From NCBI RefSeq assembly GCF_000317895.1, contig NC_019567.1, positions 186,001 through 250,000 on the forward strand: 64,000 nucleotides of DNA, given 5' to 3'. Position 1 is the first letter of the stretch. Each line of letters starts with the position of its first letter. The position numbers and the translations under genes were made by a program. This document shows positions 47,725 through 61,800 of the stretch, in pieces. Source of the DNA: Bdellovibrio bacteriovorus str. Tiberius. Its GTDB lineage: Bacteria; Bdellovibrionota; Bdellovibrionia; Bdellovibrionales; Bdellovibrionaceae. The notes under the pieces are model-generated. The model was given only the letters and a program-made list of their open reading frames with translations. It ran no database searches and was not told the origin of the DNA.

Positions 47725-47801
47725 GGGGGGCTAGCTTAGTTGGTTAAAGCACGGTGCTCATAACACTGGGATCGGGGGTTCAAGTCCCTCGCCCCCTACC
47801 A
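47725..47801 (+). tRNA. tRNA with CAU anticodon (elongator Met, or Ile2)
   Basis: A 77-base cloverleaf with encoded CCA. Acceptor arms 47725-47731 and 47791-47797, D arm GCTT...AAGC, anticodon arm CGGTG-CTCATAA-CACTG, T arm GGGGG...CCCTC. The anticodon stem lacks the three G-C pairs of initiator tRNA. CAU can be Met or, with lysidine, Ile2; sequence alone does not settle this. Island-like sequence begins just after it, as is common for integration at tRNA genes. Confidence 0.93.
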
Positions 47802-48422: not shown

Positions 48423-49262
48423 TTAGCCAAAGAATTTATAAGAAAGAGCTTTTACCAGCGAGTCCTCAGTCGGTCCCATAATGTATGAGTCCGTGATGCC
48501 CTTACCTGTGAGATAATGCATGACCTTTTGTCGTTCTCGCCTTGGGATGCTGAACTTCAATGTTACGTCCTGTGCCTTATCATTCTTGGTGAGTACAAGT
48601 TCGTGCTGAGCGAAACTTTGAATGGATCCTGCTTTGGTAAGGCAAACCGTATATTCACTTTTTTGATTTTCATGGCGAGGGTGTATATCCAGAGTATTAC
48701 CAATACTTAGAATCCTGGGACTCGAAGAGTTCACAATTTTTCCCCAGTTTAAGTACTCTAACAAAACATAGATAGAAACAAAGTCGCTATCAGATTGATC
48801 TCTAAAAGCAAAAAATGCCGCTATGTCATGAGATTGCGACCAATCCAATAATGGTGATGGAAAACTATGATGGCGTAAATAGGCAAGTGCCGGAATATAT
48901 TTGTGAATATTTTCAGGCGTAAGAATTAAGTCAAAATCAGCAATATCGCCTAGGTCATGAAATATCGGAGCGGAAGGAAAGCTCTGACAAATTTCCCTAC
49001 AGGCCATTTTAGCTATTGATAAATATTCTACTATTGGCGTCTCTGATCTACCACTGGCTCTATTCAATGTTGAGTCGAGCGACCAATTTGAGTTGGCATG
49101 ACCCCTAAAAAGCGGTGGAGATACATATGTAGATCCTTGCTCCTCTTTTAAGGATTGAAGAGTTGTGCTCAGTCTATCCATTTCTTGCTGGAAATCTTCC
49201 CAGGAATTAACTTCATTAAACGTTTCAAAAGGTATTTCGATAGTTTTTTTAAATCTCTCCAT
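48423..49262 (-). CDS. FRG-domain protein
   Basis: This protein of 279 residues carries the FRG domain: the LFRGHANSNWSLDSTLNR segment (51-68) and HHSFPSPLLDWSQSHDIAAFFAF (131-153) are its hallmarks. FRG proteins are of unknown activity but are often found in phage-defence islands and near toxin-like genes. The ATG lies 5 bp after the stop of the GIY-YIG gene, so these form one operon. Confidence 0.85.
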   Translation of the reverse strand: MERFKKTIEIPFETFNEVNSWEDFQQEMDRLSTTLQSLKEEQGSTYVSPPLFRGHANSNWSLDSTLNRASGRSETPIVEYLSIAKMACREICQSFPSAPIFHDLGDIADFDLILTPENIHKYIPALAYLRHHSFPSPLLDWSQSHDIAAFFAFRDQSDSDFVSIYVLLEYLNWGKIVNSSSPRILSIGNTLDIHPRHENQKSEYTVCLTKAGSIQSFAQHELVLTKNDKAQDVTLKFSIPRRERQKVMHYLTGKGITDSYIMGPTEDSLVKALSYKFFG

Positions 49263-49267
49263 GGAGG

Positions 49268-50167
49268 CTAAGCTGCTTCTTCCAGCTCACATTCAAAGAG
49301 TGGTTTTCCATCAGAGACCCGTTTCCAGTCGGTACGTCCGTTAGTTTGACCACCTCTCACAACGGCTGCCGCTGCTGATGGAGATTTAAACTCCATGTCC
49401 TGAGTTGTTTCCAGGAAGTTTGGATTTTGAGAGGGTCTAACAGCCTTTGAATTTGTTATTTGTTGCCACAATCCAAAGTAGCTGTGACTTTTGAAGCTGT
49501 CTCTTGCGCTTTTCCGTATCGGCGAGCCAGCCTTGAGAACAAATGATCCATCGGTAACGTGCATCAGCGCCTTCTGGTTTTCGCCATCATCAGAAAGATC
49601 TTTTGGGAGGGTTAGATAGTATGTTGGGGCATCTCCCGTGTATTGTATCGGATCATCCATGCGTTTTTCCGTCAGAAACAATCCGAATCCTAAAGTCTCA
49701 AGTACAAATATCATATTTGCCAAAAATTCTTCCATCGCGCAGACATCAGGCTCAGGAAGCTTAGATCCAGATGGCATATCTTCGTTCATTACTTTCAGCG
49801 ACGAGACGGAAAGTTTCGCCAAGCGTACGAGTCTCTCTTCCAAGTATCTGACATGTGCCTTAGTTAAATCACGACTGACAAATACTATGAAATTTTCCCA
49901 CCAGTCTTTTTTCGCGTGCTGAATAATTCGCTTAGAAGAAGAGTCGGTTTCTCCGATGTAAATTTTTGTGAGGTCTGAGTCCTCGTCGTCATGTAGTAGC
50001 AAATAAATACCAGTTTCCTCTAATTCAGAGATATCTCTCATTTGCTTCAAGTGACTTCTATTTCCCATAAACGCTTTGCCAGTCCAATTTACGATTTCAA
50101 TGCTCTTGAGGGATCTGGCATTAAGTCCGCGAACATAAATTTTTAAAGTTTTGCCGATTATATTCAT
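49268..50167 (-). CDS. GIY-YIG nuclease-like protein with C-terminal DUF4357
   Basis: This protein of 299 residues has a GIY-YIG-type nuclease domain (Gly53-Ile-Tyr, Tyr70-Ile-Gly, Arg near 80) and a C-terminal DUF4357 segment (SPSAAAAVVRGGQTNGRTDWKR) with a modified-base/DNA-binding look. The two are often fused in defence-related nucleases. No ribosome site is obvious before the ATG. It is first in the minus-strand operon, divergent from the methyltransferase gene. Confidence 0.75.
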   Translation of the reverse strand: MNIIGKTLKIYVRGLNARSLKSIEIVNWTGKAFMGNRSHLKQMRDISELEETGIYLLLHDDEDSDLTKIYIGETDSSSKRIIQHAKKDWWENFIVFVSRDLTKAHVRYLEERLVRLAKLSVSSLKVMNEDMPSGSKLPEPDVCAMEEFLANMIFVLETLGFGLFLTEKRMDDPIQYTGDAPTYYLTLPKDLSDDGENQKALMHVTDGSFVLKAGSPIRKSARDSFKSHSYFGLWQQITNSKAVRPSQNPNFLETTQDMEFKSPSAAAAVVRGGQTNGRTDWKRVSDGKPLFECELEEAA

Positions 50168-50357: not shown

Positions 50358-51803
50358 ATGGAAAAAAATAAAGTTAATAAAGCCCAGGGAATGTACCCAA
50401 CACCAATATCTCTCGTCAAAAAAAGCGTGCATCTATCTTTCTCCAAGTCAGATTTAAAAAAAGACTACTATCTGATCGAGCCTGGTGCCGGTACGGGAAA
50501 TTATGTTATTGGCTATTGGGAGTGTGCTTTTGCTGCTTTAGATAAGCGTAGTATGGAAAGGCTAGTTGCCAACACAATCTGTTTCGAAAATCATAAAGAA
50601 ACTTTCGGCATCCTTAAGTCTGAAACTGAAAAATGGCTTAGGTCTAAGAATATCGCTAGTCGTCCTAGTCTGATAAAAGACAACTTTCTGCTTTCAGCAG
50701 GCAAGCACATTAAAACGAACAAACCAATTTTTGTAATTGGGAATCCTGCTTGGGATGAATACACGACAAGAAAACATGACGAGACAAATATTACTGAAAT
50801 TAAAGAAATAAGAAATGAACGCAATAAAGAGCACGAGTACTTTCGTAGTCTAGGGCACAAGAATGTTTATCAGTCATTTCTTCACGTCATTTTCTCACTT
50901 TCTTCCGCTGAGCTTACTTTGTCATTTGTGCTTCCAAGACAATTTCTTGGGGATAAATCAAGTTCGGAATTACGTAAAGAAATGCTGAGCAGTGGAGTCG
51001 TCAAGATTAACTCGTTCAAAAACAAGGACAATCCTGAATACGAATTTGAGTGTGTCGATAAGAATTTCGAAATTATCCTCCTGACTTATAAACGTACTTC
51101 ACACAGAAAATCAGAAAACCTTTTTGTATGCAGAGGTCTTGAGAGAACTTATTTTTCGATTTCTGCTATCGGAGAGGATGCTACTATTCCTTGCCCAAGT
51201 TCAAATGAAGAAATTGAGTTAAACGCTGACTTACTATCAAGGCATTCTCTTGAAGAGTGGGCTGATCGTTATGGGGTAGAGATCTCCATGGGGAAAGTAA
51301 AACACTACGAAGCGGGATATAACAAAGCTTTGTCAGGAAAGACCATTTCTCCCTATGATGTTCATTCTGGAAAGACATTAAAGTTGGTACTTAATAAAAT
51401 TCTTCCCAACTCTAATAGAAAAATCAAAGCTGCATTGGTTTCAAGCAATAAAGATGTCAATGAGTCGTTGGTTGAGATCAGTTGTCCGAACCAAGAAGTT
51501 CTTCATTATCTCTATTTGATGCTAAACTCTAAAGCAATTGACTCGGCATTAAGAAGTCTTGTCAGTAATATCAACCTAAACATTTTCAGATTGCTTTCGC
51601 TGCCAATTCCAGCTCCAGACGAAGTAGCGCTTAGACAATCTCGGAAATTGGTTGATCGGATTCTCAAAGACTCAATCGATCCAAACCGCGGAAGCCAAGA
51701 AATGTCTGAAAAGGTATTTGGCGTGCGTGCTAGCAAGCTAAAAATGCTTGAGGGGATCTACTTCGATCACGCTTACGGAAAAGATTTAGAGAAAGCAGCT
51801 TAA
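50358..51803 (+). CDS. Adenine-specific DNA methyltransferase-like protein
   Basis: This protein of 481 residues has the SAM-binding motif I PGAGTGNY near 42 and a motif IV-like segment VIGNPAWDEY near 128. The catalytic motif is normally (N/D/S)PP(Y/F/W); here the second Pro is Ala. The remainder (target-recognition-like region, ending with LSLPIPAPDEV where specificity domains often contact DNA) fits a gamma-class N6-adenine enzyme. It begins an operon with mcrB (3 bp gap) and mcrC. Whether it is catalytically active is uncertain. Confidence 0.75.
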   Translation: MEKNKVNKAQGMYPTPISLVKKSVHLSFSKSDLKKDYYLIEPGAGTGNYVIGYWECAFAALDKRSMERLVANTICFENHKETFGILKSETEKWLRSKNIASRPSLIKDNFLLSAGKHIKTNKPIFVIGNPAWDEYTTRKHDETNITEIKEIRNERNKEHEYFRSLGHKNVYQSFLHVIFSLSSAELTLSFVLPRQFLGDKSSSELRKEMLSSGVVKINSFKNKDNPEYEFECVDKNFEIILLTYKRTSHRKSENLFVCRGLERTYFSISAIGEDATIPCPSSNEEIELNADLLSRHSLEEWADRYGVEISMGKVKHYEAGYNKALSGKTISPYDVHSGKTLKLVLNKILPNSNRKIKAALVSSNKDVNESLVEISCPNQEVLHYLYLMLNSKAIDSALRSLVSNINLNIFRLLSLPIPAPDEVALRQSRKLVDRILKDSIDPNRGSQEMSEKVFGVRASKLKMLEGIYFDHAYGKDLEKAA

Positions 51804-51805
51804 GA

Positions 51806-53485
51806 ATGGCCAAAAAGAAAAAGAAAGATTACCAGATTTCTAATGAGGCACATCTCTTTGGGATGGCTCTTGCCTTCTTAAAGGAAAATAATGGAATTTC
51901 AAGATCAGAATTTCCGGGGAAATTTATTTCTTATTTGGAAGCAAATAAATTTTTGCTTCCAGATGACCTAAAGCTTCGGGGAGACCTAGGGCTGTCCAGA
52001 GAAACCGAAAAAGCAATTGAAGTGAATGTTCGTAATCTCTACTCAAGCCATACAACCCTTTTTAAAACTGGGCAAGTTGTCGAAAAAGGTGGAGCTTTCT
52101 ATCTTGCGGCTGTGGCGGCAGGAGCGACGAAGAAAAATGAGTCATTTTCTGTGCGAAATTCCGACATGGAAAACGTAATCTATTATGGTCCTCCAGGGAC
52201 GGGTAAGACCTATCTCGCAAAACGTCAGAATCCTGGTGCAGAGCCAACTTTAATTCAGTTTCACTCTTCTTACACTTATGAGCATTTCATACAGGGAGAG
52301 CGGCTTGTCTCAATCGGTGATCATCGAACTACTCAGATTGTCGATGGTCCACTAATGATTTGCTATCGACGGGCAACTGACACGCCAGTCAGAACCAAAG
52401 TTTGTGGACGAATACATGAGGAAAGGAAAGATGAAACAGAGATCATTTTTCCTACCGGATTACTTTCTAGATATGGGATCAACGATCCAGAAGATTTATT
52501 GGTGTCCTTCGATCCTGGCGATGAAGATGGTTTTTTGGAACCTTTTGAGCTACTCGGTGCCTCCGCAAAATTCAATAAAGAGTCTCTGCCTAAGAATTTG
52601 ATCTCCAAGAATGGAGATTTAATTGAAGTCGAGTTTAAATCGGCCTCGTGGGTGAATAAGAGCCCCCAACTTCTAATCGTCGATGAAATTAATAGAGCTG
52701 ATGCCTCAAGAGTATTCGGTGAACTAATGACTGCGCTGGCAGATATTGATGATGATGGAAACTCACAACCAATTGCACTTCAATATAGTGGTGAAAAGTT
52801 TCGTTGGCCAGATAATCTAAGAATGATCGGAACGATGAATAGCGCTGATAGATCTATTGGTGAAATTGATCAGGCGATGAAAAGAAGATTTAAAATTATT
52901 GAATGTCCTCCTCGTCCGGATCTTCTAAAGACTGAGGAAATAAGAAAAATTCGTCGTGCGATTGATGAGATTTCTCATGAGGTAGACCTCGCAAAGCTTA
53001 AGAAGAATGTAAAATCAGACATTAAAATCGATAAAGCGACTTGTGATAGCATCATTGATTTCTATAATAAGATTTGCGATTCCTTTGTCGGAAATCCTGA
53101 GTACCTCATTCCCTTGCCAAGCATGTCCCTTATGGCGCTTCACGACGTCTTAGATCTTCACAAAGACTCAATATTCGCTGTCGAGCGAAAGAAGATAGGC
53201 CATAGTTTTCATATGGAAGTATCTCAGTCCATTGCAGAAAAAATTGTGACGGCTATACATCAGGGAGAAATAAGCGAAAAGTTAATGAACGAAGATTTTG
53301 CGAAGTCTCTTAGGGCTTACTACGAAGAGTTTGTATCGCAGGAAATCAAGCCACAGGTTGCGTCAATTTGTTTGGAAAATGATCTTACAATCAAAGAAAT
53401 TATTAAGTCGTGGTCACAGCGTGAAAAAGAAAGCTTGAAGTCATATTTGGGAAAATCCGTAAGTGATAAAGCAGCTAAAGTCTAA
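51806..53485 (+). CDS. mcrB: McrB-type AAA+ GTPase
   Basis: This protein of 559 residues has an N-terminal domain (about 1-120, DNA-recognition region), then the McrB AAA+ domain: Walker A GPPGTGKT near 127-134, Walker B LIVDEINRA near 288, the signature GTMNSADR near 342, and the Arg finger in KRRF near 358. McrB hexamers use GTP to drive DNA translocation and call the McrC nuclease. It overlaps the McrC frame by 23 bp. Confidence 0.9.
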   Translation: MAKKKKKDYQISNEAHLFGMALAFLKENNGISRSEFPGKFISYLEANKFLLPDDLKLRGDLGLSRETEKAIEVNVRNLYSSHTTLFKTGQVVEKGGAFYLAAVAAGATKKNESFSVRNSDMENVIYYGPPGTGKTYLAKRQNPGAEPTLIQFHSSYTYEHFIQGERLVSIGDHRTTQIVDGPLMICYRRATDTPVRTKVCGRIHEERKDETEIIFPTGLLSRYGINDPEDLLVSFDPGDEDGFLEPFELLGASAKFNKESLPKNLISKNGDLIEVEFKSASWVNKSPQLLIVDEINRADASRVFGELMTALADIDDDGNSQPIALQYSGEKFRWPDNLRMIGTMNSADRSIGEIDQAMKRRFKIIECPPRPDLLKTEEIRKIRRAIDEISHEVDLAKLKKNVKSDIKIDKATCDSIIDFYNKICDSFVGNPEYLIPLPSMSLMALHDVLDLHKDSIFAVERKKIGHSFHMEVSQSIAEKIVTAIHQGEISEKLMNEDFAKSLRAYYEEFVSQEIKPQVASICLENDLTIKEIIKSWSQREKESLKSYLGKSVSDKAAKV

Positions 53486-54857
53486 ACTTAGTCAAAGTGC
53501 GCTGGAGCATGAATATGCTGGGATAGACCAAGACGGTGTTTATCTGCCAAAGTCGCTCAAGATGCTGTCTGGTGAAGATCTGAGAACGGCATTGCGTGGT
53601 GTTCAGTGCGCCTGGCAGAGGACTACGATGGGTAAAGGCATTTACTCAACCGACTCTGTAACCACCGATGCGTGCACTCATAAAGAATTTCTGGAGTTCC
53701 TAGTTTTGGTTTGGTTACGCCGATTCAATTTTGTGTTAGCACAGCACTTAAATCCTATTTTTGTCAGAGTAAGCAAGTCTCAAAATTTTTGTCTTGGATA
53801 TGTTGATTATTCAAAGTTCGAAATTGAGAGCGAACTCGGGCAGACAGCATTCAATTGCGTATACAGTGAACTTACTTTTGATCGCGCGGAGTTTAGAGTA
53901 ATCAAAGATGGCTATGTCCAATTTGTTAATCATTTAATCGCGCTAGGCCTCAATACGAAGTCGATTGTGCGAGAATGTACGAATGGACTTCAAATTGTGA
54001 AAGACATTCCGAAGTCATCTGATCCGATTTCAAATGCGCATAATGTTCGTCTAAGATCTGGGATAGATATTATGAAGAACCCCAGTTCTATCGAGCTACC
54101 AGTTAAGATGATGAGCCTCACAGAAGTGATCGATTTTTTTTCTCACTATCTGATGTATGGAATTAAAGGTGTTTCTAAGGACAAGTTTCGCTTCAAAGGC
54201 CTGCTTTTTAATCTGAACTACTTGCTTGAAATAGTTTTGCGGTGCTCTCTTCGTTCGCTTTATTCAGACTATTCGTTGCAAACTGAAGTTTTTAAAGATG
54301 ATGAAATTAATGAGATACAAGTCATTCGGAATGGACAAGTTGTCAGATATAGAAACATGCGTCCCGACTGTCAGGGCGTTTTCTCTGAATTTCATCCGTC
54401 AGTTCCTAAGAAGTTGGCAAAGGATTTTAAAAACTCAATTTATCTCTTCGATGCTAAACACAAAGTACTAGTGAAAGATCAGCAGGTAGAGGATACAAAA
54501 AGGAACGATTTATATCAGATTGTTTCTTATGCTCGAACACACAATAACAGATTAAGTCTCCAGTCATTTTACGGTTTAGTTTGTCTGGATGAGGTAACCG
54601 GTATTGTTCCTTACGGAGATATCCTTCAAGGGAGATATATTAGATTTGGATCGGACTCTAATGCTCTCACGAACAAAATAATTTACGATGAAAACGAATT
54701 TGATATATTTCAGATTCCAATTAATTTCGCTCAACTCTTATTTGATGTCGGATCGGTGGCAACAAATGAGGAAGTTGATAAAATATTTTTTTTATTTGGA
54801 GTTGAGTTGTTATCTTCTATTCAAGAAACAAAAACTGCTCTGAGGTCTGCAGCTTAA
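53463..54857 (+). CDS. mcrC: McrC-type PD-(D/E)XK nuclease
   Basis: This protein of 464 residues has the McrC-like N-terminal region and a C-terminal nuclease core: MRPDCQGVF near 298, then FDAKHK near 328 (D...DxK) and DLYQIVSYA near 347. Together with the AAA+ partner it should cleave DNA recognised by McrB. It starts at GTG inside the mcrB end. Its last 41 bases overlap the convergent ASCH gene, which is unusual and means no terminator between. Confidence 0.8.
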   Translation: MIKQLKSKLSQSALEHEYAGIDQDGVYLPKSLKMLSGEDLRTALRGVQCAWQRTTMGKGIYSTDSVTTDACTHKEFLEFLVLVWLRRFNFVLAQHLNPIFVRVSKSQNFCLGYVDYSKFEIESELGQTAFNCVYSELTFDRAEFRVIKDGYVQFVNHLIALGLNTKSIVRECTNGLQIVKDIPKSSDPISNAHNVRLRSGIDIMKNPSSIELPVKMMSLTEVIDFFSHYLMYGIKGVSKDKFRFKGLLFNLNYLLEIVLRCSLRSLYSDYSLQTEVFKDDEINEIQVIRNGQVVRYRNMRPDCQGVFSEFHPSVPKKLAKDFKNSIYLFDAKHKVLVKDQQVEDTKRNDLYQIVSYARTHNNRLSLQSFYGLVCLDEVTGIVPYGDILQGRYIRFGSDSNALTNKIIYDENEFDIFQIPINFAQLLFDVGSVATNEEVDKIFFLFGVELLSSIQETKTALRSAA

Positions 54858-55242
54858 TAGAGTTTGTATAAACGATGCCTCGTCTTTTAGAAACGGGTAT
54901 TGACTGCTTAAGTGGATATATTTTTGAAATAGTCCATCCCCATTTATTTTTTTTCTTATCCCACTTCCAATCAGATTTCCGATCTACCAAATGTCGATTT
55001 GAGTCCTTATAAAATGCAGCCTCACTTGTGTATTCAAAACAGGAGTCGAAAATGACTACAGCAATCGCACGCGCTGAGAAATTTCCCACACTACCTGGCG
55101 TCTCAATAAGCCACATTGGAATATTGAGATACTTTTTGGGGATGGGGTAAAATCTTGTTTCTACAGTTTTATTTCCAAGCCTTATTTCTTGAGAAATTGG
55201 ATACTGTATATTTAATCCTGGAAGAGTTATTTCCTTTTTCAT
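54817..55242 (-). CDS. ASCH-domain protein
   Basis: This protein of 141 residues has the ASCH signature G-x-K-x-x-E-x-R (LGNKTVETR, 22-30), then a strand with ETPGS...ARAIAVVIF and Trp residues late (WGWTI), as in PUA-like ASCH folds that bind RNA or modified nucleotides. Its ATG follows directly on the radical SAM stop (TAA then ATG), so they are coupled. Its 3' end overlaps the end of mcrC by 41 bp. Confidence 0.75.
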   Translation of the reverse strand: MKKEITLPGLNIQYPISQEIRLGNKTVETRFYPIPKKYLNIPMWLIETPGSVGNFSARAIAVVIFDSCFEYTSEAAFYKDSNRHLVDRKSDWKWDKKKNKWGWTISKIYPLKQSIPVSKRRGIVYTNSIKLQTSEQFLFLE

Positions 55243-56613
55243 TTATAGACTAGGACCATCCCCAAGAGGTCGGTGTAAACTTTCTTCGGAAACTGGAAGC
55301 TGCGACTTATGAGCGGTAAATTTTAAGCGAGTCTCGAATGGTATATCTCGACTGTTGGTATGAAATGCCGGAACTCTATCTTTGATATTGCAGCAATCTT
55401 TTTTGTTTGACCAAAGATCCTGGTCTTTCCAAAAATGATTTTCTCCGTTGCCAATATAACATGTGGTAAACTGCACATTGCTTTGCTGGCATCTTTTTTT
55501 GATCTGTTCATAATAATAACGAATTTCGTTGTCGCTAAAGTGAAAATCACGTTTAGATTTTCGCACCTCATCCGTATAGAAGTTTCGTAGCCCAAATCCT
55601 GTAGCCTTTTCCAATTGAGTTAGCGAGTAGGTACTAAATCTTCCAAACCCTGCCAAGATCGACTTCACACCTGATGCGGCCATTTCATCGACCATATCGA
55701 AAGAGAAATAGTCAAATTTTGGAGTTTCATCTGTTTTTTGGAAGTTCGCATCCGTAAAGTACCCATCTGGATGGATTGGGAAAACTGGATTTATTCGGAT
55801 AGTCGTCCAGTATCCAGCCTCGCTAATTTTTTTAATGGCAGCGAGACGTCTTTTGGCAGAGGGCGCACCAGGCTCAATCTTTTTATTCATTTCATCATTG
55901 GTGGATGAAATGCTGAACTGGATTGATGTTAGTTTCGGATCAATCAAGGACATATATTCATCTGTTGCTACTAAGTCTGAGCGCGTGAAGATTACATATG
56001 GATAGTTATAATGTTTTAGGATCTTTAGAAGATGCTGAGTTACTTTATACTTTTGATCCATCCACATGAATGAGTCACTCATAGAGCCAATTCGGAGAGG
56101 AATCCTTTTTTCTAGTATTGGTCGCCATTTTGAAGTTTTGTCGGTTTCAAATACTGTGTAGAAGACATTGTGAATTTCGTTAATATTTAAAGGTACTGGA
56201 AAGGGGTTGTTCCAGTAACCATGTACAGTCAATTGCGCTTTGGCATAACAGTAAACGCAGTTATGAACGCATCCTCTTCCGTACGTGTCGATTTCGAATG
56301 CGTACAGGCATTGTTGGCAAGTCGCGTGTGAATTGACGACTTTGAATGGAGTTTTAAAAAGAATGCCACCACGAATATCGACTTTTTTGCTTCTAATCTC
56401 TAAGTCTTTTATAGGCGTCCAATCGTAAGTGTCTTTGAACGATGATTTAGCAATTAATTTGCTTTCCTCGTCTTGAAGGTCATCAGTAATTGGAGTGTCC
56501 GATACAAAATCACCCGTGATTTTTAATCCTCTATGCAGATCGAGATTAATCAGCGAAGCCCCTTTGGATGGGTTGTTGTTTAGGTCGGCGACTGTAAGAT
56601 CATTGTTGTCCAT
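55243..56613 (-). CDS. Radical SAM protein, spore-photoproduct-lyase-like
   Basis: This protein of 456 residues has the radical SAM cluster motif GRGCVHNCVYCYAK (Cys115, Cys119, Cys122; CX3CX2C), a second Cys pair CQQC before it (99, 102), and segments of the SplB/COG1533 family (RIGSMSDSF, VIFTRSDLV, IEPGAPSAKRR, RINPVFPIHPDG). No Cys is present for more than 200 residues after the cluster, so the H-donor Cys of true spore photoproduct lyase (about 43 residues on) is missing. Three more Cys lie near the end (TTCYIGNG, KKDCCN). Start at 56613 follows GAGGAG by 5 bases. It overlaps the small regulator gene by 14 bp and abuts the ASCH gene. Confidence 0.85.
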   Translation of the reverse strand: MDNNDLTVADLNNNPSKGASLINLDLHRGLKITGDFVSDTPITDDLQDEESKLIAKSSFKDTYDWTPIKDLEIRSKKVDIRGGILFKTPFKVVNSHATCQQCLYAFEIDTYGRGCVHNCVYCYAKAQLTVHGYWNNPFPVPLNINEIHNVFYTVFETDKTSKWRPILEKRIPLRIGSMSDSFMWMDQKYKVTQHLLKILKHYNYPYVIFTRSDLVATDEYMSLIDPKLTSIQFSISSTNDEMNKKIEPGAPSAKRRLAAIKKISEAGYWTTIRINPVFPIHPDGYFTDANFQKTDETPKFDYFSFDMVDEMAASGVKSILAGFGRFSTYSLTQLEKATGFGLRNFYTDEVRKSKRDFHFSDNEIRYYYEQIKKRCQQSNVQFTTCYIGNGENHFWKDQDLWSNKKDCCNIKDRVPAFHTNSRDIPFETRLKFTAHKSQLPVSEESLHRPLGDGPSL

Positions 56614-56797
56614 AAATCTCCTCTTTTTGGCTCTTCGGCTTTGCAACTGATTTCAGCTTTAGCGAAGGGTTCTCGATAAAAGACAAAATCGCGTGCCTTG
56701 CCAGCGATGAAAAATCGAAAAAGGAGTTCTGTTTTAGGAACTCCTGAATCAACTTCTCTTCATTTTCGGAAAAACGGATTGCTCTTGTCTTGGCCAT
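56600..56797 (-). CDS. Small ribbon-helix-helix-like regulator
   Basis: This protein of 65 residues starts MAKTRAIRFSENEEKLIQEFL, like CopG/RHH antidote- or repressor-type proteins (strand then two helices). The ATG at 56797 is used; no strong ribosome site is visible. Its end overlaps the radical SAM start by 14 bp, so it leads a three-gene operon with it and the ASCH gene. It may repress its own operon, which is inference. Confidence 0.6.
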   Translation of the reverse strand: MAKTRAIRFSENEEKLIQEFLKQNSFFDFSSLARHAILSFIENPSLKLKSVAKPKSQKEEIYGQQ

Positions 56798-56944: not shown

Positions 56945-57571
56945 TTACCTGCTAAACGCAAAAGGGAAAAAATGTGGGGCAAGCTCAAAGTCAATTTCAG
57001 CCCGCTTTTCAATCTTAGAGTATCCATACATAGCCAGGTCACACGTGCCTAGGGCCATTAGTGGCAGGTTACCGTGGAAGCTGGCTGTTGCGATTTTAAT
57101 CGTACCTTTGATTAGAACTCTATTTGAGCTTTCTAAAAATGAGGCACGATCTTTTATGAAGCGATGAGCGCTCACCCCAGTATCAATCATTGCGATACCT
57201 GAAGCCAAAAAATCGCCGATGTTCAGACTCCCGAGATTTTGCGCAATTTTGGGGGAGATAAGGTTTTTGGTAACCGCTGTTTGGACACCAGGAAGTGGGA
57301 TGCCGTTTGTCGTTAAAGAGTCTTTGCCGACTTCTCTAGCGAATCTAAATCCAAAGCGCCCCCACAAATCGGAGTCAACAATACTATGGCCACCGTATAG
57401 ACGATGGAAACCGCCGTGCTTAAGTATGCCGCCATTCATGGTGTCCATAGTCTGGCTAACAGCGTTTGCGGTAAAACGAATGCCCTTCGTTAATTCGGTA
57501 ACGCCTTCTGAAGCCGAACTTCCCATGCAGAGCGCGTAGCTTTTGCATTTCTTCAAATAAATTTTCATAGC
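56945..57571 (-). CDS. Unrecognised protein, Gly-rich
   Basis: This frame reads about 208-254 residues depending on start; codons from 57709 to 57571 are all possible. The Met at 57571 (MKIYLKKCKSYALCMG) and the one at 57607 are the best guesses. The product has Gly/Ile/Ala-rich stretches (NGGILKHGGFHRLYGG, LASGIAMIDTG) and no motif I know. It may be an integral or secreted protein or a decayed gene. It is divergent from the small gene at 57673. Confidence 0.35.
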   Translation of the reverse strand, partial: AMKIYLKKCKSYALCMGSSASEGVTELTKGIRFTANAVSQTMDTMNGGILKHGGFHRLYGGHSIVDSDLWGRFGFRFAREVGKDSLTTNGIPLPGVQTAVTKNLISPKIAQNLGSLNIGDFLASGIAMIDTGVSAHRFIKDRASFLESSNRVLIKGTIKIATASFHGNLPLMALGTCDLAMYGYSKIEKRAEIDFELAPHFFPFAFSR

Positions 57572-57649
57572 ATCTAATGCCACTTTGTTGGGCACAATGC
57601 CAATCATATTTGTTCGAGGGCTTCGAAATTTGTTTATACATTTGCATAA

Positions 57650-57672
57650 AATCGTATGTACAATCGTATGTA
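57650..57672 (+). repeat. 11-bp direct repeat before small DNA-binding gene
   Basis: Two perfect copies of AATCGTATGTA (57650-57660 and 57662-57672) with a 12-base period end at the ATG of the next gene. This is a typical layout for a repressor operator. Confidence 0.6.
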
Positions 57673-57876
57673 ATGAACACACAAAAAGAATCTCAGATAT
57701 TGGCAGCAATTAGAAAATCAGAACCTAAAAAGAAAAGGGTAACTTTCTTTATATCTGCAAACGCCAAATCAGGTTTGGCTGCGTGGTGTGGAAAACACGG
57801 TGTTACTGAAAGTTCTGCCATAGAGGAAATGATACGGTCTACGGTTCCTGAAAAGTTCTTTAAGCAGGAGGATTAG
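57673..57876 (+). CDS. Small DNA-binding-like protein
   Basis: This protein of 67 residues (RVTFFISANAKSGLAAWCGKH, TESSAIEEMIR) has the length and layout of an RHH/CopG-type regulator. It lies just after a direct repeat and its stop overlaps by one base the small terminase start. It may regulate the terminase genes. Confidence 0.55.
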   Translation: MNTQKESQILAAIRKSEPKKKRVTFFISANAKSGLAAWCGKHGVTESSAIEEMIRSTVPEKFFKQED

Positions 57877-58331
57877 TGGCAAGACATCCCAAAGACACCA
57901 CTCCAAAGCTCACAGATCAATTGATCGAAACCATCGCGCAAGCGATTCGTGTCGGTTCCTACGTAGAAACGGCAGTTGCCCTTGCGGGAGTATCAAAAGA
58001 CTCGTTCTATCGTTGGCTTCGTCAGGCAGAAAGCGACGATTCGACACTTCTGACAGTAAAATTATCGGACGCAGTAAAAAAGGCGTTAGCTGAATCAGAA
58101 AAGCGTGATCTGGATGTGATCGATAAAGCAGCGCAAGAGGGCGAATGGACGGCTGCTGCCTGGAGACTTGAAAGAAAATTTCCCAACAAATGGGGACGCC
58201 AATCAAAGGTTCAACTCGAACATACTGGAATGGATGGCGGGCCAATTGAAATTCAGTCGATGACTGAGGATGAAATGGAGACGCGCATTGAAAAGCTCTT
58301 ACAGAAACGAACTGTCCTTATCGAGGACTGA
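57876..58331 (+). CDS. Phage terminase small subunit-like protein
   Basis: This protein of 151 residues has an N-terminal helix-turn-helix (KLTDQLIETIAQAIRVGSYVETAVALAGVSKDSFYRWLRQAE) and a helical middle, as in small terminases that recognise phage DNA. It starts at GTG overlapping the previous stop. It overlaps the large subunit gene by 62 bp. Confidence 0.75.
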   Translation: MARHPKDTTPKLTDQLIETIAQAIRVGSYVETAVALAGVSKDSFYRWLRQAESDDSTLLTVKLSDAVKKALAESEKRDLDVIDKAAQEGEWTAAAWRLERKFPNKWGRQSKVQLEHTGMDGGPIEIQSMTEDEMETRIEKLLQKRTVLIED

Positions 58332-59766
58332 AAAAATTGAACTTCTAAAGCTTTTGGAAAATGAAAGTTACGAGCTGGCCGAGAAAAGCCTCTCTCGCTT
58401 CGTCATGGACGCTTGGGACGTGCTTGAGCCCAAGAACGCATATTTGCATAACTGGCATATTGGATTGATCACAGAGCATCTAGAGGCCGTAAGCAATGGC
58501 GATGAAAAGCGTCTGATCATTAATATTCCACCCCGTTACATGAAAAGCCTTTGCGTAAGTGTGATGTGGCCTGTCTGGTCTTGGATTGCACGTCCAGAGA
58601 ACCGTTGGATTTTTGCCAGTTACTCTCAATCTCTCGCAACGAAACATTCAGTTGATCGCCGTCATTTGATTCAATCGCCCTATTTTCAGAATCGGTGGGG
58701 GAAGTTATTTTCTCTAACTGACGATCAGAATCTTAAAACTGAGTTTTTGAACACACGACGTGGTCACATGATTGCAACTTCTGTCGGCGGTACGGCAACG
58801 GGCAAGGGTGGCGACATAATTGTGGTTGATGATCCTCACAATCCTTTAGAAGCAAGTTCGGATGTCTTAAGGCAGAAAGCTATCGACTTCTTTGATCAGA
58901 CCCTGACGACTCGTTTGGATAATAAAAAGAATGGGGCCATCGTCGTCGTTATGCAACGGCTGCACGAAAATGATTTGACGGGACATCTTTTAGAGCAAGG
59001 CGATTGGACGCACCTCTGCGTTCCAGCTTTGGCGGAGTCTCGAACAATCTATAATTTTCCTGTTTCGGGAAAAGTGAAGATTTGCAATGAAGGCGAAATT
59101 CTATTTCCCAAGCGTGAGGACACTGCAGAGATCGACCGACAGAAGCGAGCTTTGGGCAGCATTGCGTTCGCAGCTCAGTATCAACAGCAGCCAACTCCTA
59201 GCGAGGGGGCAATAATTCAGAAATCATGGTTCAGATATTATTCTGAGCTACCCATCAAGTTCGACGAAATAATTCAGTCTTGGGATATGAGTTTTAAAGA
59301 CTCTGAAAATTCAGACTACGTTGTTGGTCAAGTATGGGGTCGTGTTGGCGCGAACAAATATCTTCTAGATCAAACTCGGAAAAGAATGGCGTTTCCCGAT
59401 ACTGTTCGTGCGTTTAAAGCAATTACGGAAAAGTGGCCGCGAGCCTTTCGAAAACTTGTAGAGGACAAAGCAAATGGATCTGCGATCATATCGACTTTGA
59501 AGGATAGCATTCCAGGAATTATCGCGATAAATCCGACAGAGTCAAAATTAGCGCGGCTCTCGGCAGTCTGCCCGCAAATTGAAGCTGGAAATGTATTCTT
59601 ACCTGATCCCAATCTAAACCCGTTGGTAAGTGATCTGATTGATGAGGCACTTCGATTTCCGCGTGGGAAACATGATGATCAAGTCGATGCGATGACCATG
59701 GCGCTGAACGATTTTCAGAGCCGTCATAAGGCAATTACGTTTTTGGATAAAATCACAAAATTTTAA
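58270..59766 (+). CDS. Phage terminase large subunit
   Basis: This protein of 498 residues has the ATPase Walker A (PPRYMKSL near 87-94), Walker B (IIVVDDPH near 183), and the RNase-H-like nuclease acidic residues in SWDMSF near 337 and HDDQVDAM near 467. It packages and cuts DNA in phages. It appears complete, but there is no portal, protease, capsid or tail gene in the window. The next gene is a nuclease on the other strand. Confidence 0.88.
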   Translation: MKWRRALKSSYRNELSLSRTEKIELLKLLENESYELAEKSLSRFVMDAWDVLEPKNAYLHNWHIGLITEHLEAVSNGDEKRLIINIPPRYMKSLCVSVMWPVWSWIARPENRWIFASYSQSLATKHSVDRRHLIQSPYFQNRWGKLFSLTDDQNLKTEFLNTRRGHMIATSVGGTATGKGGDIIVVDDPHNPLEASSDVLRQKAIDFFDQTLTTRLDNKKNGAIVVVMQRLHENDLTGHLLEQGDWTHLCVPALAESRTIYNFPVSGKVKICNEGEILFPKREDTAEIDRQKRALGSIAFAAQYQQQPTPSEGAIIQKSWFRYYSELPIKFDEIIQSWDMSFKDSENSDYVVGQVWGRVGANKYLLDQTRKRMAFPDTVRAFKAITEKWPRAFRKLVEDKANGSAIISTLKDSIPGIIAINPTESKLARLSAVCPQIEAGNVFLPDPNLNPLVSDLIDEALRFPRGKHDDQVDAMTMALNDFQSRHKAITFLDKITKF

Positions 59767-60719
59767 TCGGCAGTTAGGTTTTCGATATGAGGCTTCAAAG
59801 CCTCGTGAAGTCTAATCATGGCGTCAATCATCTGCTCTTGAAGTCTGGCCCTGCTTTGAGGATTGTTAAAAGGATCGCCATCAATCGATATTCTAATTCG
59901 CGACGACCTGGCGCTTTCCATTCGTTCCCACTCAATTGGTCCGCCAAACACTCGTTCAATTTCGGCTTGGTGTTTCCGAATTTGATCGAACATTTTCTTG
60001 TTCTTCGCTCCGCCTTCTTGCTTGTCTTTGTCGATGACAAGTTCAGCGGTGCCTCTTTTGCGAGTGACAGTATAAGCAAAGTAAATTCCGCTCTGTCCGG
60101 CTCCCATGTTGATATAATGAAATCGCACTGGGGAGATTGTGCTAAAAAGTTTCGTCTTACCTTTGCTTTTCTCAAGTAGCTCAGACCAAAAAGAATATCG
60201 ATCCAGGTGATTTGCGGCCCACTCCTTCTTTTTCTCGCCCACCTCTTTGATTTTTTGATTTGGCATAGCTAGGACAGTAAAAATAGGTGCGAACGGTGAG
60301 TCGCCAATTTTAGCGGCTTCGACTCGGACTAAATAGAAGCCTACATCTGTTGAGGATGCTTCATTCAGCCACTCAATGACCTTTTGATGTTCTGGGCGTG
60401 GTTCAGTTGTGATCCAAATTGCCTTCTTTGCATCGAGATTCACAAGATAAGTCAAAAGCTGTCCAAGATGATTGTGATTTGTCTTTTCAAGTTGGTTCTC
60501 TATGACTACGGCTCCGCCTTCATCATCTTCACAAACCAAATCGATGCTGAAATCGCCAACTTTTTGCTCTCGCGCTGTAACGGATAATTCAAAGCCTAAC
60601 CGTTCGGTTAAGGCGTCAATATGCAGTTCAAGCCAGCGGGTGAAATTATGTGCTTCGTGTTTGAATGCCTGGCGTACAGGTACGATCTCGAGTTTTGCAA
60701 CTTCTCTTAACTTGCTCAT
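59763..60719 (-). CDS. PD-(D/E)XK nuclease-like protein with DUF4268
   Basis: This protein of 318 residues has an N-terminal nuclease fold (Asp56/Asp60 in VGDFSIDLV, then Glu74-x-Gln76 in VVIENQLEKTNHNHLGQLLTY) and a DUF4268-like C-terminal half. Similar proteins occur in defence islands. It overlaps the XRE gene by 4 bp (ATGA) and is the last of a recombinase-XRE-nuclease operon. Its end overlaps the terminase stop by 4 bp on the other strand. Confidence 0.75.
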   Translation of the reverse strand: MSKLREVAKLEIVPVRQAFKHEAHNFTRWLELHIDALTERLGFELSVTAREQKVGDFSIDLVCEDDEGGAVVIENQLEKTNHNHLGQLLTYLVNLDAKKAIWITTEPRPEHQKVIEWLNEASSTDVGFYLVRVEAAKIGDSPFAPIFTVLAMPNQKIKEVGEKKKEWAANHLDRYSFWSELLEKSKGKTKLFSTISPVRFHYINMGAGQSGIYFAYTVTRKRGTAELVIDKDKQEGGAKNKKMFDQIRKHQAEIERVFGGPIEWERMESARSSRIRISIDGDPFNNPQSRARLQEQMIDAMIRLHEALKPHIENLTAD

Positions 60720-61078
60720 GATCTACTTTTAACTCGACGGAACTTTACTTCGAAGATGCCGCCAATCCATTCATCACCAAGCAAGGAACTGAGTTCGGTA
60801 TGCTTTTTGGATTCTTCATCAGATCCACTTCCAAACATGAGATTGTCCAAGGTAACTCCAAGAGCATCGGCCACCCTTTTAACTTGTCGGACGTCACGGG
60901 GATTACTTCCCGCAAGCCATCCCGAAAGAGATTGCTTGGGTACGCTTGCTTTTCGCGCTAACTGAGCTGCGCTTAAGTCATGAGTGTCTAGATAAAATCT
61001 AAGCTGCTTTTTCAAATTCATTGAATTTACAATCGGCATTTTAATTCGAGTGTTTGATGTTAAGTCCGGCTTCTTCAT
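60716..61078 (-). CDS. XRE-family transcription regulator
   Basis: This protein of 120 residues has a Cro/CI helix-turn-helix (about 35-57, LSAAQLARKASVPKQSLSGW). A short C-terminal part ends FEVKFRRVKSRS. It starts 2 bases after the recombinase stop, with GAGGAT upstream, and overlaps the nuclease start. It is a likely autoregulator of the operon. Confidence 0.85.
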   Translation of the reverse strand: MKKPDLTSNTRIKMPIVNSMNLKKQLRFYLDTHDLSAAQLARKASVPKQSLSGWLAGSNPRDVRQVKRVADALGVTLDNLMFGSGSDEESKKHTELSSLLGDEWIGGIFEVKFRRVKSRS

Positions 61079-61080
61079 TG

Positions 61081-61800
61081 TTAATCCTCATTGCCGGACG
61101 ATTTGTCCTTTTCGTCGGACTTCTGAGTGCCCACTATTCGTTCGTTTGTGGGGCATTCAGATTCCGAATTTTGTCGGTTGAAATCATTGGGTTTTTTGAC
61201 CGATGTTTCAGAGGGGTTTTTGGGGCACGCCTTGAGTACGCGCCAGATCGTCCCCTTAGATACTCCTGTGCGCTTTTGAATTTCTCTTTGGGAACAGCCT
61301 TCCTGATCTAACGAGAGAATCACATCGGAGTCGATGGTTCGGGGGCGTCCCAATGTCTTTCCCTTAGCCTTTGCATGCTGAAGCCCTAAAAGCGTTCTTT
61401 CTCGGACCAGGGCCTTTTCAAATTCGGCGAGGCTACCCAGAACTTGGACAAACAACCTTCCGCTTGGAGTGGTGTAGTCGATATTGTCAGTGACGGCGAC
61501 GAACTCAATTCCAAGTGCTGAAAAGTCATCCAATGCTGTCACTAGATGTTTTAGAGAGCGAAATAGGCGATCCATTTTGAGGACGACTATGGCGTCGATT
61601 TCACGGCATTTAGCCAACTCCATGAGTCGCTTAAGGCCAGGACGTTTATCGTTTCCTCCGGTATATCCGTGATCGATGATCTCATGCTCAATTTTCCATT
61701 CACGCGAACGACAGAAACGTCGAAGTGTCGAAAGTTGAACTTCGGGATTCTGGTCGTGGTGCGATGTGGATACTCGAGCGTAGATGGCGGCATTTTTCAT
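61081..61800 (-). CDS. Serine recombinase (resolvase/invertase family)
   Basis: This protein of 239 residues has the catalytic Ser11 (YARVSTSHHD), the segment VLKMDRLFRS with Arg contacts, LAEFEKALVRERT, and a C-terminal helix-turn-helix (CSQREIQKRTGVSKGTIWRVL). It is a small serine recombinase, so it may act in inversion or resolution rather than as a large integrase. The C-terminal ~40 residues are charged and disordered. It begins the minus-strand operon. Confidence 0.92.
   Translation of the reverse strand: MKNAAIYARVSTSHHDQNPEVQLSTLRRFCRSREWKIEHEIIDHGYTGGNDKRPGLKRLMELAKCREIDAIVVLKMDRLFRSLKHLVTALDDFSALGIEFVAVTDNIDYTTPSGRLFVQVLGSLAEFEKALVRERTLLGLQHAKAKGKTLGRPRTIDSDVILSLDQEGCSQREIQKRTGVSKGTIWRVLKACPKNPSETSVKKPNDFNRQNSESECPTNERIVGTQKSDEKDKSSGNED

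Follow-up and report, generated by a model that had tools for sequence, protein, structure and literature searches.

A radical SAM-ASCH gene cassette beside the restriction systems of Bdellovibrionota, with a possible role in DNA modification

We describe a three-gene operon found in a 64,000-nucleotide stretch of the genome of Bdellovibrio bacteriovorus str. Tiberius (contig NC_019567.1, positions 186,001 to 250,000; the whole of it is called the window below). The operon encodes a ribbon-helix-helix (RHH) protein, a radical S-adenosylmethionine (SAM) protein that resembles spore photoproduct lyase (SPL), and a protein with an ASCH domain. Quite possibly, at a likelihood that we would place just short of even, it is a DNA-modification cassette that is coupled, as an accessory, to restriction systems, in which a mark on a DNA base is made or edited together with the methyltransferase of the partner system. 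The three genes lie on the minus strand and are tightly coupled, as an earlier note on this DNA, made from the sequence alone, had claimed: the RHH and radical SAM genes overlap by exactly 14 bp, and the stop codon of the latter directly abuts the ATG of the ASCH gene. The same note placed the operon tail-to-tail with a methyltransferase-McrBC module in an island, and both statements were borne out. Namely, the neighbours match the McrBC, AAA_5/McrB and Eco57I methyltransferase families of Pfam, the ASCH gene overlaps the convergent McrC gene by 41 bp, the latter is preceded on the plus strand by McrB and then by the Eco57I-type methyltransferase, and the module lies within a region of low GC content (36-46%, against ~50%) that runs from ~48 kb to ~70 kb in window coordinates.

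The arrangement is conserved well beyond this strain. One scan of a genome collection returned five relatives, at 48-66% identity, all five with an ASCH gene directly downstream. When 369 genomes from the phylum were searched with a profile, 38 had homologues, and 35 flanks were fetched. Clade 1 of these homologues comprises 31 loci, nearly all of them in Bdellovibrionota (L003 and L005 included), and in every one the ASCH gene directly follows the radical SAM gene, at a spacing of -45 to +13 bp. The pairing is just as strict when approached from the other side: the ASCH profile matched 34 times, in 30 of the 369 genomes, and each match adjoins a clade-1 radical SAM gene. With 30 further loci that show it, the arrangement is not a matter of chance. 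The pair is thus kept across the phylum rather than being peculiar to one strain, and no housekeeping context was seen for its two genes, these being two of the checks that the earlier note had proposed. The RHH gene is less constant and stands just upstream in 23 of the 31 loci; in the other eight the upstream DNA gave no clear match, some of the contigs ending there. To call its product the regulator, as the note did, is what one would ordinarily conclude for such a protein, and it does not extend to all loci. Ten radical SAM homologues have no ASCH gene, namely seven full-length members of clade 2 (L064-067 and L070-072) and three fragments, one of which (L073) still carries RHH.

The only copy found outside Bdellovibrionota sits on a small contig of a metagenome-assembled genome of Cyclobacteriaceae (L004, JALHOT010000042.1) and is due either to transfer or to misbinning; as a single case among 296 Bacteroidota genomes, it does not support an origin of the cassette in that phylum. 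Scans of viral contigs with the radical SAM and ASCH proteins of the window and with profile A1 returned no close relatives, only distant phage radical SAM proteins, so that phages do not commonly carry the module as a passenger. Matches on plasmids were mostly to housekeeping PA0069 or Rv2578c proteins or to mobile-pair-B proteins. PADLOC 2.0.0 has no strong model for any of the three proteins, its only match being pVip for the radical SAM protein (E 2.9e-4). The earlier note had not seen such a function described; a search of open-licence full texts likewise found no description of a radical SAM-ASCH module, subscription papers being mostly outside the scope of the search, and the papers on EVE/ASCH proteins by Bell and colleagues, on Dnd, on BREX, on YprA helicases and on archaeal dark matter do not describe it.

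In 29 of the 30 loci that could be read on this side (the L007 contig ends at the ASCH gene), restriction or defence genes come after ASCH, and the partner system includes an amino-DNA-methyltransferase of the Eco57I, N6_Mtase or N6_N4_Mtase family, which is the common denominator of the partners. There are at least five kinds of partner: type IIG/DrmMI-like Eco57I methyltransferases of ~1100 residues (12 loci, one with a remnant), McrBC with a methyltransferase (6), type III Mod/Res (4), a DruE-like helicase with a methyltransferase (3) and other N6 methyltransferases (4), where some assignments are given by membership of a sequence cluster with a scanned representative. Contact between the two is close. 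Ten convergent ASCH/partner pairs overlap by exactly 4 bp, at their stop codons, and in seven loci the methyltransferase gene follows on the same strand as ASCH, 59-127 bp downstream; in L005, one gene for a 235-residue protein lies between ASCH and the restriction genes. The kind of partner changes 12 times on the radical SAM tree (minimum 4, shuffled mean 13.9), which means that module and partner are not inherited together and that the tie between them has been re-made repeatedly. In other words, function rather than shared descent seems to account for the tie. It is partly because ASCH is always paired with the radical SAM protein, with restriction genes next in nearly all loci, that we favour a DNA-modification cassette.

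The radical SAM protein belongs to its superfamily by its match to Radical_SAM (PF04055, 2.4e-10, 41.3 bits against a cut-off of 29.5), and it has the CX3CX2C motif that the earlier note had pointed out. Residue numbers given here follow the translation of window positions 55246-56610 on the minus strand, without Met1 (plus 1 for the full protein). Eight cysteines are invariant in 35 sequences of clades 1 and 2, namely C98xxC101, C114x3C118x2C121, C384 and the pair C406C407, and several members have exactly these eight and no others; the CxxC ahead of the cluster and the three residues near the C-terminus (C384, C406, C407) had been missed before. The fold nearest to the AlphaFold model (predicted local distance difference test, pLDDT, 84.8) is that of SPL, with Z 18.6 and a root-mean-square deviation of 3.6 over 284 residues, the next entry having Z 15.4. 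Our reading of the protein as a DNA-modifying enzyme is held because SPL, a radical SAM enzyme that acts on DNA, is the nearest solved fold, and because the eight cysteines are invariant, with several members reduced to just these.

Even so, the protein is not an SPL by definition, since a donor cysteine is not conserved in the SPL interval. The next cysteine comes 253 residues after the cluster (the earlier note had said over 200), none between C121 and C384 is conserved in the 35 sequences, and at position 176, which its place ahead of the conserved Asp179 makes the likely donor column, Ser or Ala predominates and only 6 of 28 clade-1 sequences have Cys; the previous conclusion that the SPL donor cysteine is not available to this enzyme can therefore be kept. 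What it has in common with SplB is the fold and the CX3CX2C motif, whereas it differs in the missing donor, in its five extra invariant cysteines, in its restriction context and in not being found in spore formers. The SPL families score below cut-off (PF20903, 22 against 27 bits; TIGR04070, 27 against 400), the PA0069 and Rv2578c families far below theirs (82.9 against 360 and 68.7 against 430 bits), and the viperin model reaches 19.1 bits against a cut-off of 180. PA0069 and Rv2578c, the housekeeping members of COG1533, share the radical SAM core but lack the extra cysteines. Matches of the A4 profile to designed armadillo repeats among the PDB sequences were discarded as spurious repeat matches.

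Two groups of phage proteins bear on the substrate. The best PHROG match of the radical SAM protein is to family 13321 (6.6e-30), whose function is unassigned. Proteins near this family, from 80 IMG/VR loci and MT835521.1, are ~280 residues long and share with the cassette enzyme C101 (in all), the cluster cysteines and the CC pair (in 79 of 81), but they are without C98, have a Cys at position 180, and no ASCH or RHH was found with them. Within three genes of the phage radical SAM gene, 46 of the 81 loci have a gene for a ParB-like protein, a C5-methyltransferase or an N6-methyltransferase-like protein, the last label having been given by eye, without a Pfam match; fusions of ParB-like domains with DNA methyltransferases are frequent (PMC12783734). 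In the tree, the phage family and clades 1 and 2 are split from PA0069, Rv2578c and the mobile-pair-B proteins with support 100/99. That these relatives keep the CC motif beside ParB-like and DNA-methyltransferase genes is another reason for our preference. The family with such neighbours is widespread among phages (L077-L156, L038:5306-6828), and a PAPS-reductase-like PP-loop gene or a member of an unassigned 254-residue family sometimes lies nearby.

The second PHROG match, phrog_9252 ('DNA repair photolyase'), is gp53 of Pseudomonas phage M6, an SPL-like COG1533 radical SAM protein similar in length to the cassette enzyme, which is credited with the rearrangement of a glycyl-thymidine in DNA. 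The M6 genome contains 5-(2-aminoethyl)deoxyuridine (PMC6449724), and the SN1 homologue of gp53, 99.8% identical, is listed as the radical SAM protein of a thymidine-modification cassette (PMC9476957). The hhalign alignment of gp53 with the module profile (E 1e-11) spans 288 columns and reaches the C-terminus, where TCY and (D/Q)C-RVPxF motifs are shared. What is more, C101, C384 and C407 are common to the two and absent from PA0069, Rv2578c and the mobile-pair-B proteins. The differences are that identity is only 24%, that gp53 is without C98 and C406, and that it is phage-borne, in the company of hydroxymethylase, kinase, pyridoxal phosphate (PLP) and pyrophosphorylase genes, with no ASCH or RHH. 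Because of the shared cysteines and the C-terminal alignment, we prefer modification as the role of the cassette. The earlier note had proposed a function in nucleotide modification or repair linked to defence. With the loci described above, the link to defence is much stronger than that note could know; modification or repair is something that we, too, infer, backed by this thymidine-hypermodification relative with three extra cysteines in common.

As for the ASCH protein, no sequence library names it by sequence. It is nevertheless assigned by fold and motif: the G-x-K-x-x-E-x-R motif, already recognized in the earlier note, is present as GNKTVETR, and the AlphaFold model (pLDDT 90.5) has the ASCH fold, matching CXorf40A/EOLA1 (Z 13.5), ZmASCH (11.6) and TRIP4-DNA (9.9). 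These proteins have both fold and motif in common with it, but the cassette protein is set apart by its strict pairing with a radical SAM protein. Matches to the EVE, YTH and McrB-N base readers, at Z ~6, possibly reflect a shared arrangement only. K25, E28, T29, R30, Y32, E47, T48, Y71, H84 and W103 are invariant in 30 sequences. YqfB, an N4-acetylcytidine (ac4C) amidohydrolase, uses a Lys21-Thr24-Glu74 triad together with Arg26 (PMC6972931); in a motif alignment K25 and R30 match, but the position of the Thr24 nucleophile is occupied by the invariant E28, which makes ac4C amidohydrolase activity unlikely. That ASCH domains read N6-methyladenine (6mA) is an unproved prediction (Iyer 2016, as cited in PMC11037411), and this prediction, along with the amino-methyltransferases of the partner systems, also inclines us towards DNA modification. 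Bell et al. 2020 (PMC7641849) reported EVE/ASCH proteins in association with restriction systems, and as here a PUA-like reader stands beside restriction genes, but the passages found in that paper describe no SPL-like radical SAM partner.

Taken together, one can propose the following mechanism. The operon is probably under the control of its RHH protein, as a repressor or a tuning factor. The CX3CX2C motif of the radical SAM enzyme would hold a [4Fe-4S] cluster that reduces SAM to give the 5'-deoxyadenosyl radical, and C98/C101, C384 and C406/C407 may form a second iron-sulphur site that takes part in the chemistry. By analogy with the thymidine-hypermodification enzyme of M6, the target would be a base in duplex DNA and the product a hypermodified base; the base in question would most likely be at or beside the methyl mark of the partner methyltransferase, or else be another base at its sites. 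ASCH would then flip out and hold, or read, the modified base, and may thereby give specificity, or self/non-self discrimination, to the partner nuclease (McrBC, type IIG, type III or DruE-like). The fullest form of this proposal, which we regard as rather unlikely, is that the self/non-self mark of such restriction systems is itself a base hypermodified by the radical SAM enzyme, for instance on N6-methyladenine, so that an enzyme of SPL fold and its ASCH reader would make up a plug-in cassette for type IIG, type III, McrBC and DruE-like systems.

The sequences show the operon, its conservation, the obligate radical SAM-ASCH pairing, the exchange of partners, the predicted folds, the set of cysteines and the phage links, and from these the occupancy of the iron-sulphur sites, DNA as the substrate, the product and the part played by ASCH are inferred. 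Several observations weigh against a DNA-modification cassette. The main doubts come from the want of chemical evidence for a substrate and from clade 2, whose proteins have all eight cysteines, no ASCH and neighbours of a biosynthetic type, and hence the set of cysteines alone does not mean DNA. The core of PA0069 is closer to the radical SAM profile than M6 gp53 is (hhalign 4.8e-17, 188 columns, core only), and in the tree gp53 forms a long branch without a settled place, so that the argument for kinship comes from the C-terminal region and the cysteines that gp53 has in common with the module. Beside the module, the scanned neighbours are restriction and island genes, with no thymidine-hydroxylation genes among them. 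One readable locus, L047, on a 4-kb contig, has no restriction neighbour. Finally, methyltransferases of PF07669 occur in 256 of the 369 genomes, mostly without the module, which must therefore be dispensable for restriction and an optional partner.

Would other explanations serve better? The SPL fold, and the label 'DNA repair photolyase' borne by COG1533, would suit an enzyme that reverses a lesion as SPL does, is guided by ASCH and protects the host from damage linked to restriction or infection. We hold such a repair function to be improbable, given that no donor cysteine is conserved after the cluster, that no need for the extra cysteines is known in SPL, and that the cassette is tied to methyltransferases and not to repair genes. 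One could also start from the amino-methyltransferase in the partner systems and suppose that the radical SAM enzyme controls the partner's N6-methyl group by oxidising or removing it, with ASCH finding the mark. With a restriction enzyme as neighbour, however, losing the self-mark would do harm if control were not tight, and we know of no radical SAM demethylase of DNA. The proposal of ASCH as a 6mA reader (PMC11037411) speaks for such erasure, which we nonetheless consider quite improbable.

Another candidate substrate is RNA, to be modified, or repaired in the case of tRNA, by the radical SAM enzyme with ASCH as the RNA-binding component, backing up restriction by, for example, abortive infection. 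The relatives of ASCH do include members that act on RNA, EOLA1 has been suggested to bind it (PMC6803910), and the radical SAM fold also resembles RlmN (Z 13). However, the partners are DNA restriction systems in 29 of 30 loci, the phage relatives lie beside DNA-methyltransferase and ParB-like genes, and gp53 is part of a DNA-hypermodification cassette; an RNA target thus seems to us improbable as well. Nor do we find it likely that the unit is simply mobile or selfish, possibly of toxin-antitoxin type, and lodged in defence islands without working with its neighbours. Its patchy spread, the nearly random distribution of partner types on the tree, and the presence of ~48%-identical modules at the same prophage-like flank in the window and in L005 are what one would expect of such a hitchhiker, but a cassette that settled at random in defence islands could hardly be expected beside systems with an amino-methyltransferase 29 times out of 30, and the contact with restriction genes, through 4-bp overlaps or codirectional methyltransferase genes, is very tight. 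Least of all do we expect a small-molecule antiviral of the kind made by prokaryotic viperins, in which the enzyme would produce a modified nucleotide: the weak pVip match speaks for this and the viperin score, far under its cut-off, against it, as do the tight ties to methyltransferases.

Table 1. Genes of the cassette and of its partner system, in window coordinates.
Feature	Position	Strand	Basis of assignment	Gene boundaries
RHH (CopG/Arc-like) small DNA-binding protein, 65 residues	56600..56797	-	Sub-threshold RelB antitoxin (NCBIfam) and DUF6290 (Pfam) matches; aligned homologues	ATG 56797; stop 56602-56600
SPL-like radical SAM protein, 456 residues	55243..56613	-	Pfam PF04055; profile family A4; AlphaFold model; relation to M6 gp53	ATG 56613; stop 55245-55243; strong ribosome-binding site agaggag
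ASCH (PUA-like) protein, 141 residues, GxKxxExR; predicted to read a base or nucleic acid	54817..55242	-	AlphaFold fold match; position directly 3' of the radical SAM gene	ATG 55242; end 54817
McrC-like protein	53463..54857	+	PF10117 E 2.5e-10; convergent with the ASCH gene	
McrB-like AAA+ NTPase	51806..53485	+	PF07728 (AAA_5) E 1.1e-12; NF008457 McrB E 7.3e-25, below its cut-off	
Eco57I-type adenine DNA methyltransferase, partner system	50358..51803	+	PF07669 E 3.2e-6, above cut-off; TIGR02987 E 1.2e-13, below cut-off	

The island carries further defence cargo, namely a GIY-YIG/DUF4357 protein at 49268-50167 that resembles the PADLOC candidate defence family PDC-S14 (1.4e-80), and an FRG-domain protein at 48423-49262 that resembles PDC-S15 (4e-26). 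A tRNA-Met at 47725 was considered as the attachment site and rejected, no repeat of its 3' end being found in the window or in the 60 kb downstream. Window positions 56945-61800 and L005:4676-9530 have a common flank with terminase small and large subunit, DUF4268 nuclease-like, helix-turn-helix and resolvase genes; the radical SAM proteins of the two are only ~48% identical and their restriction genes differ despite this flank, which amounts to a swap of cassettes at a single site of a prophage-like or satellite-like element. At other loci, the type IIG methyltransferase partner is cut down to its TaqI_C part with radical SAM and ASCH genes intact (L041:7883-8779), a DUF2779 gene lies within ~8 kb of the module in ten cases (L003, L006, L041, L045, L046, L049, L052, L054, L061 and L063), and the type IIG methyltransferase is accompanied by a small cold-shock-like gene in eight loci and a Z1-domain gene occurs in four. 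The clade-2 loci (L064:7016-14099, L065, L066, L067, L070 and L072, all with the eight cysteines) have as neighbours a class V aminotransferase of the cysteine-desulfurase type, a 120-residue protein, a PP-loop (QueC/DUF7411-like) protein and GDSL hydrolases, some also a carbamoyltransferase with SxtJ, and perhaps represent a sulphur-dependent biosynthetic cluster.

Radical SAM chemistry on DNA bases is known from phage hypermodification and from spore photoproduct repair, and the cassette would place a DNA-modification enzyme of the phage-hypermodification type in a chromosomal, restriction-linked setting. Its position beside many different restriction systems suggests that a chemical mark on DNA is used in phage defence. 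If this is true, bacteria would possess an uncharted DNA mark that serves as a general add-on to restriction, the old and unproved prediction of ASCH as a reader of modified adenine would become directly testable, and the SPL-like enzymes of unassigned role in many phages would be linked to the same chemistry.

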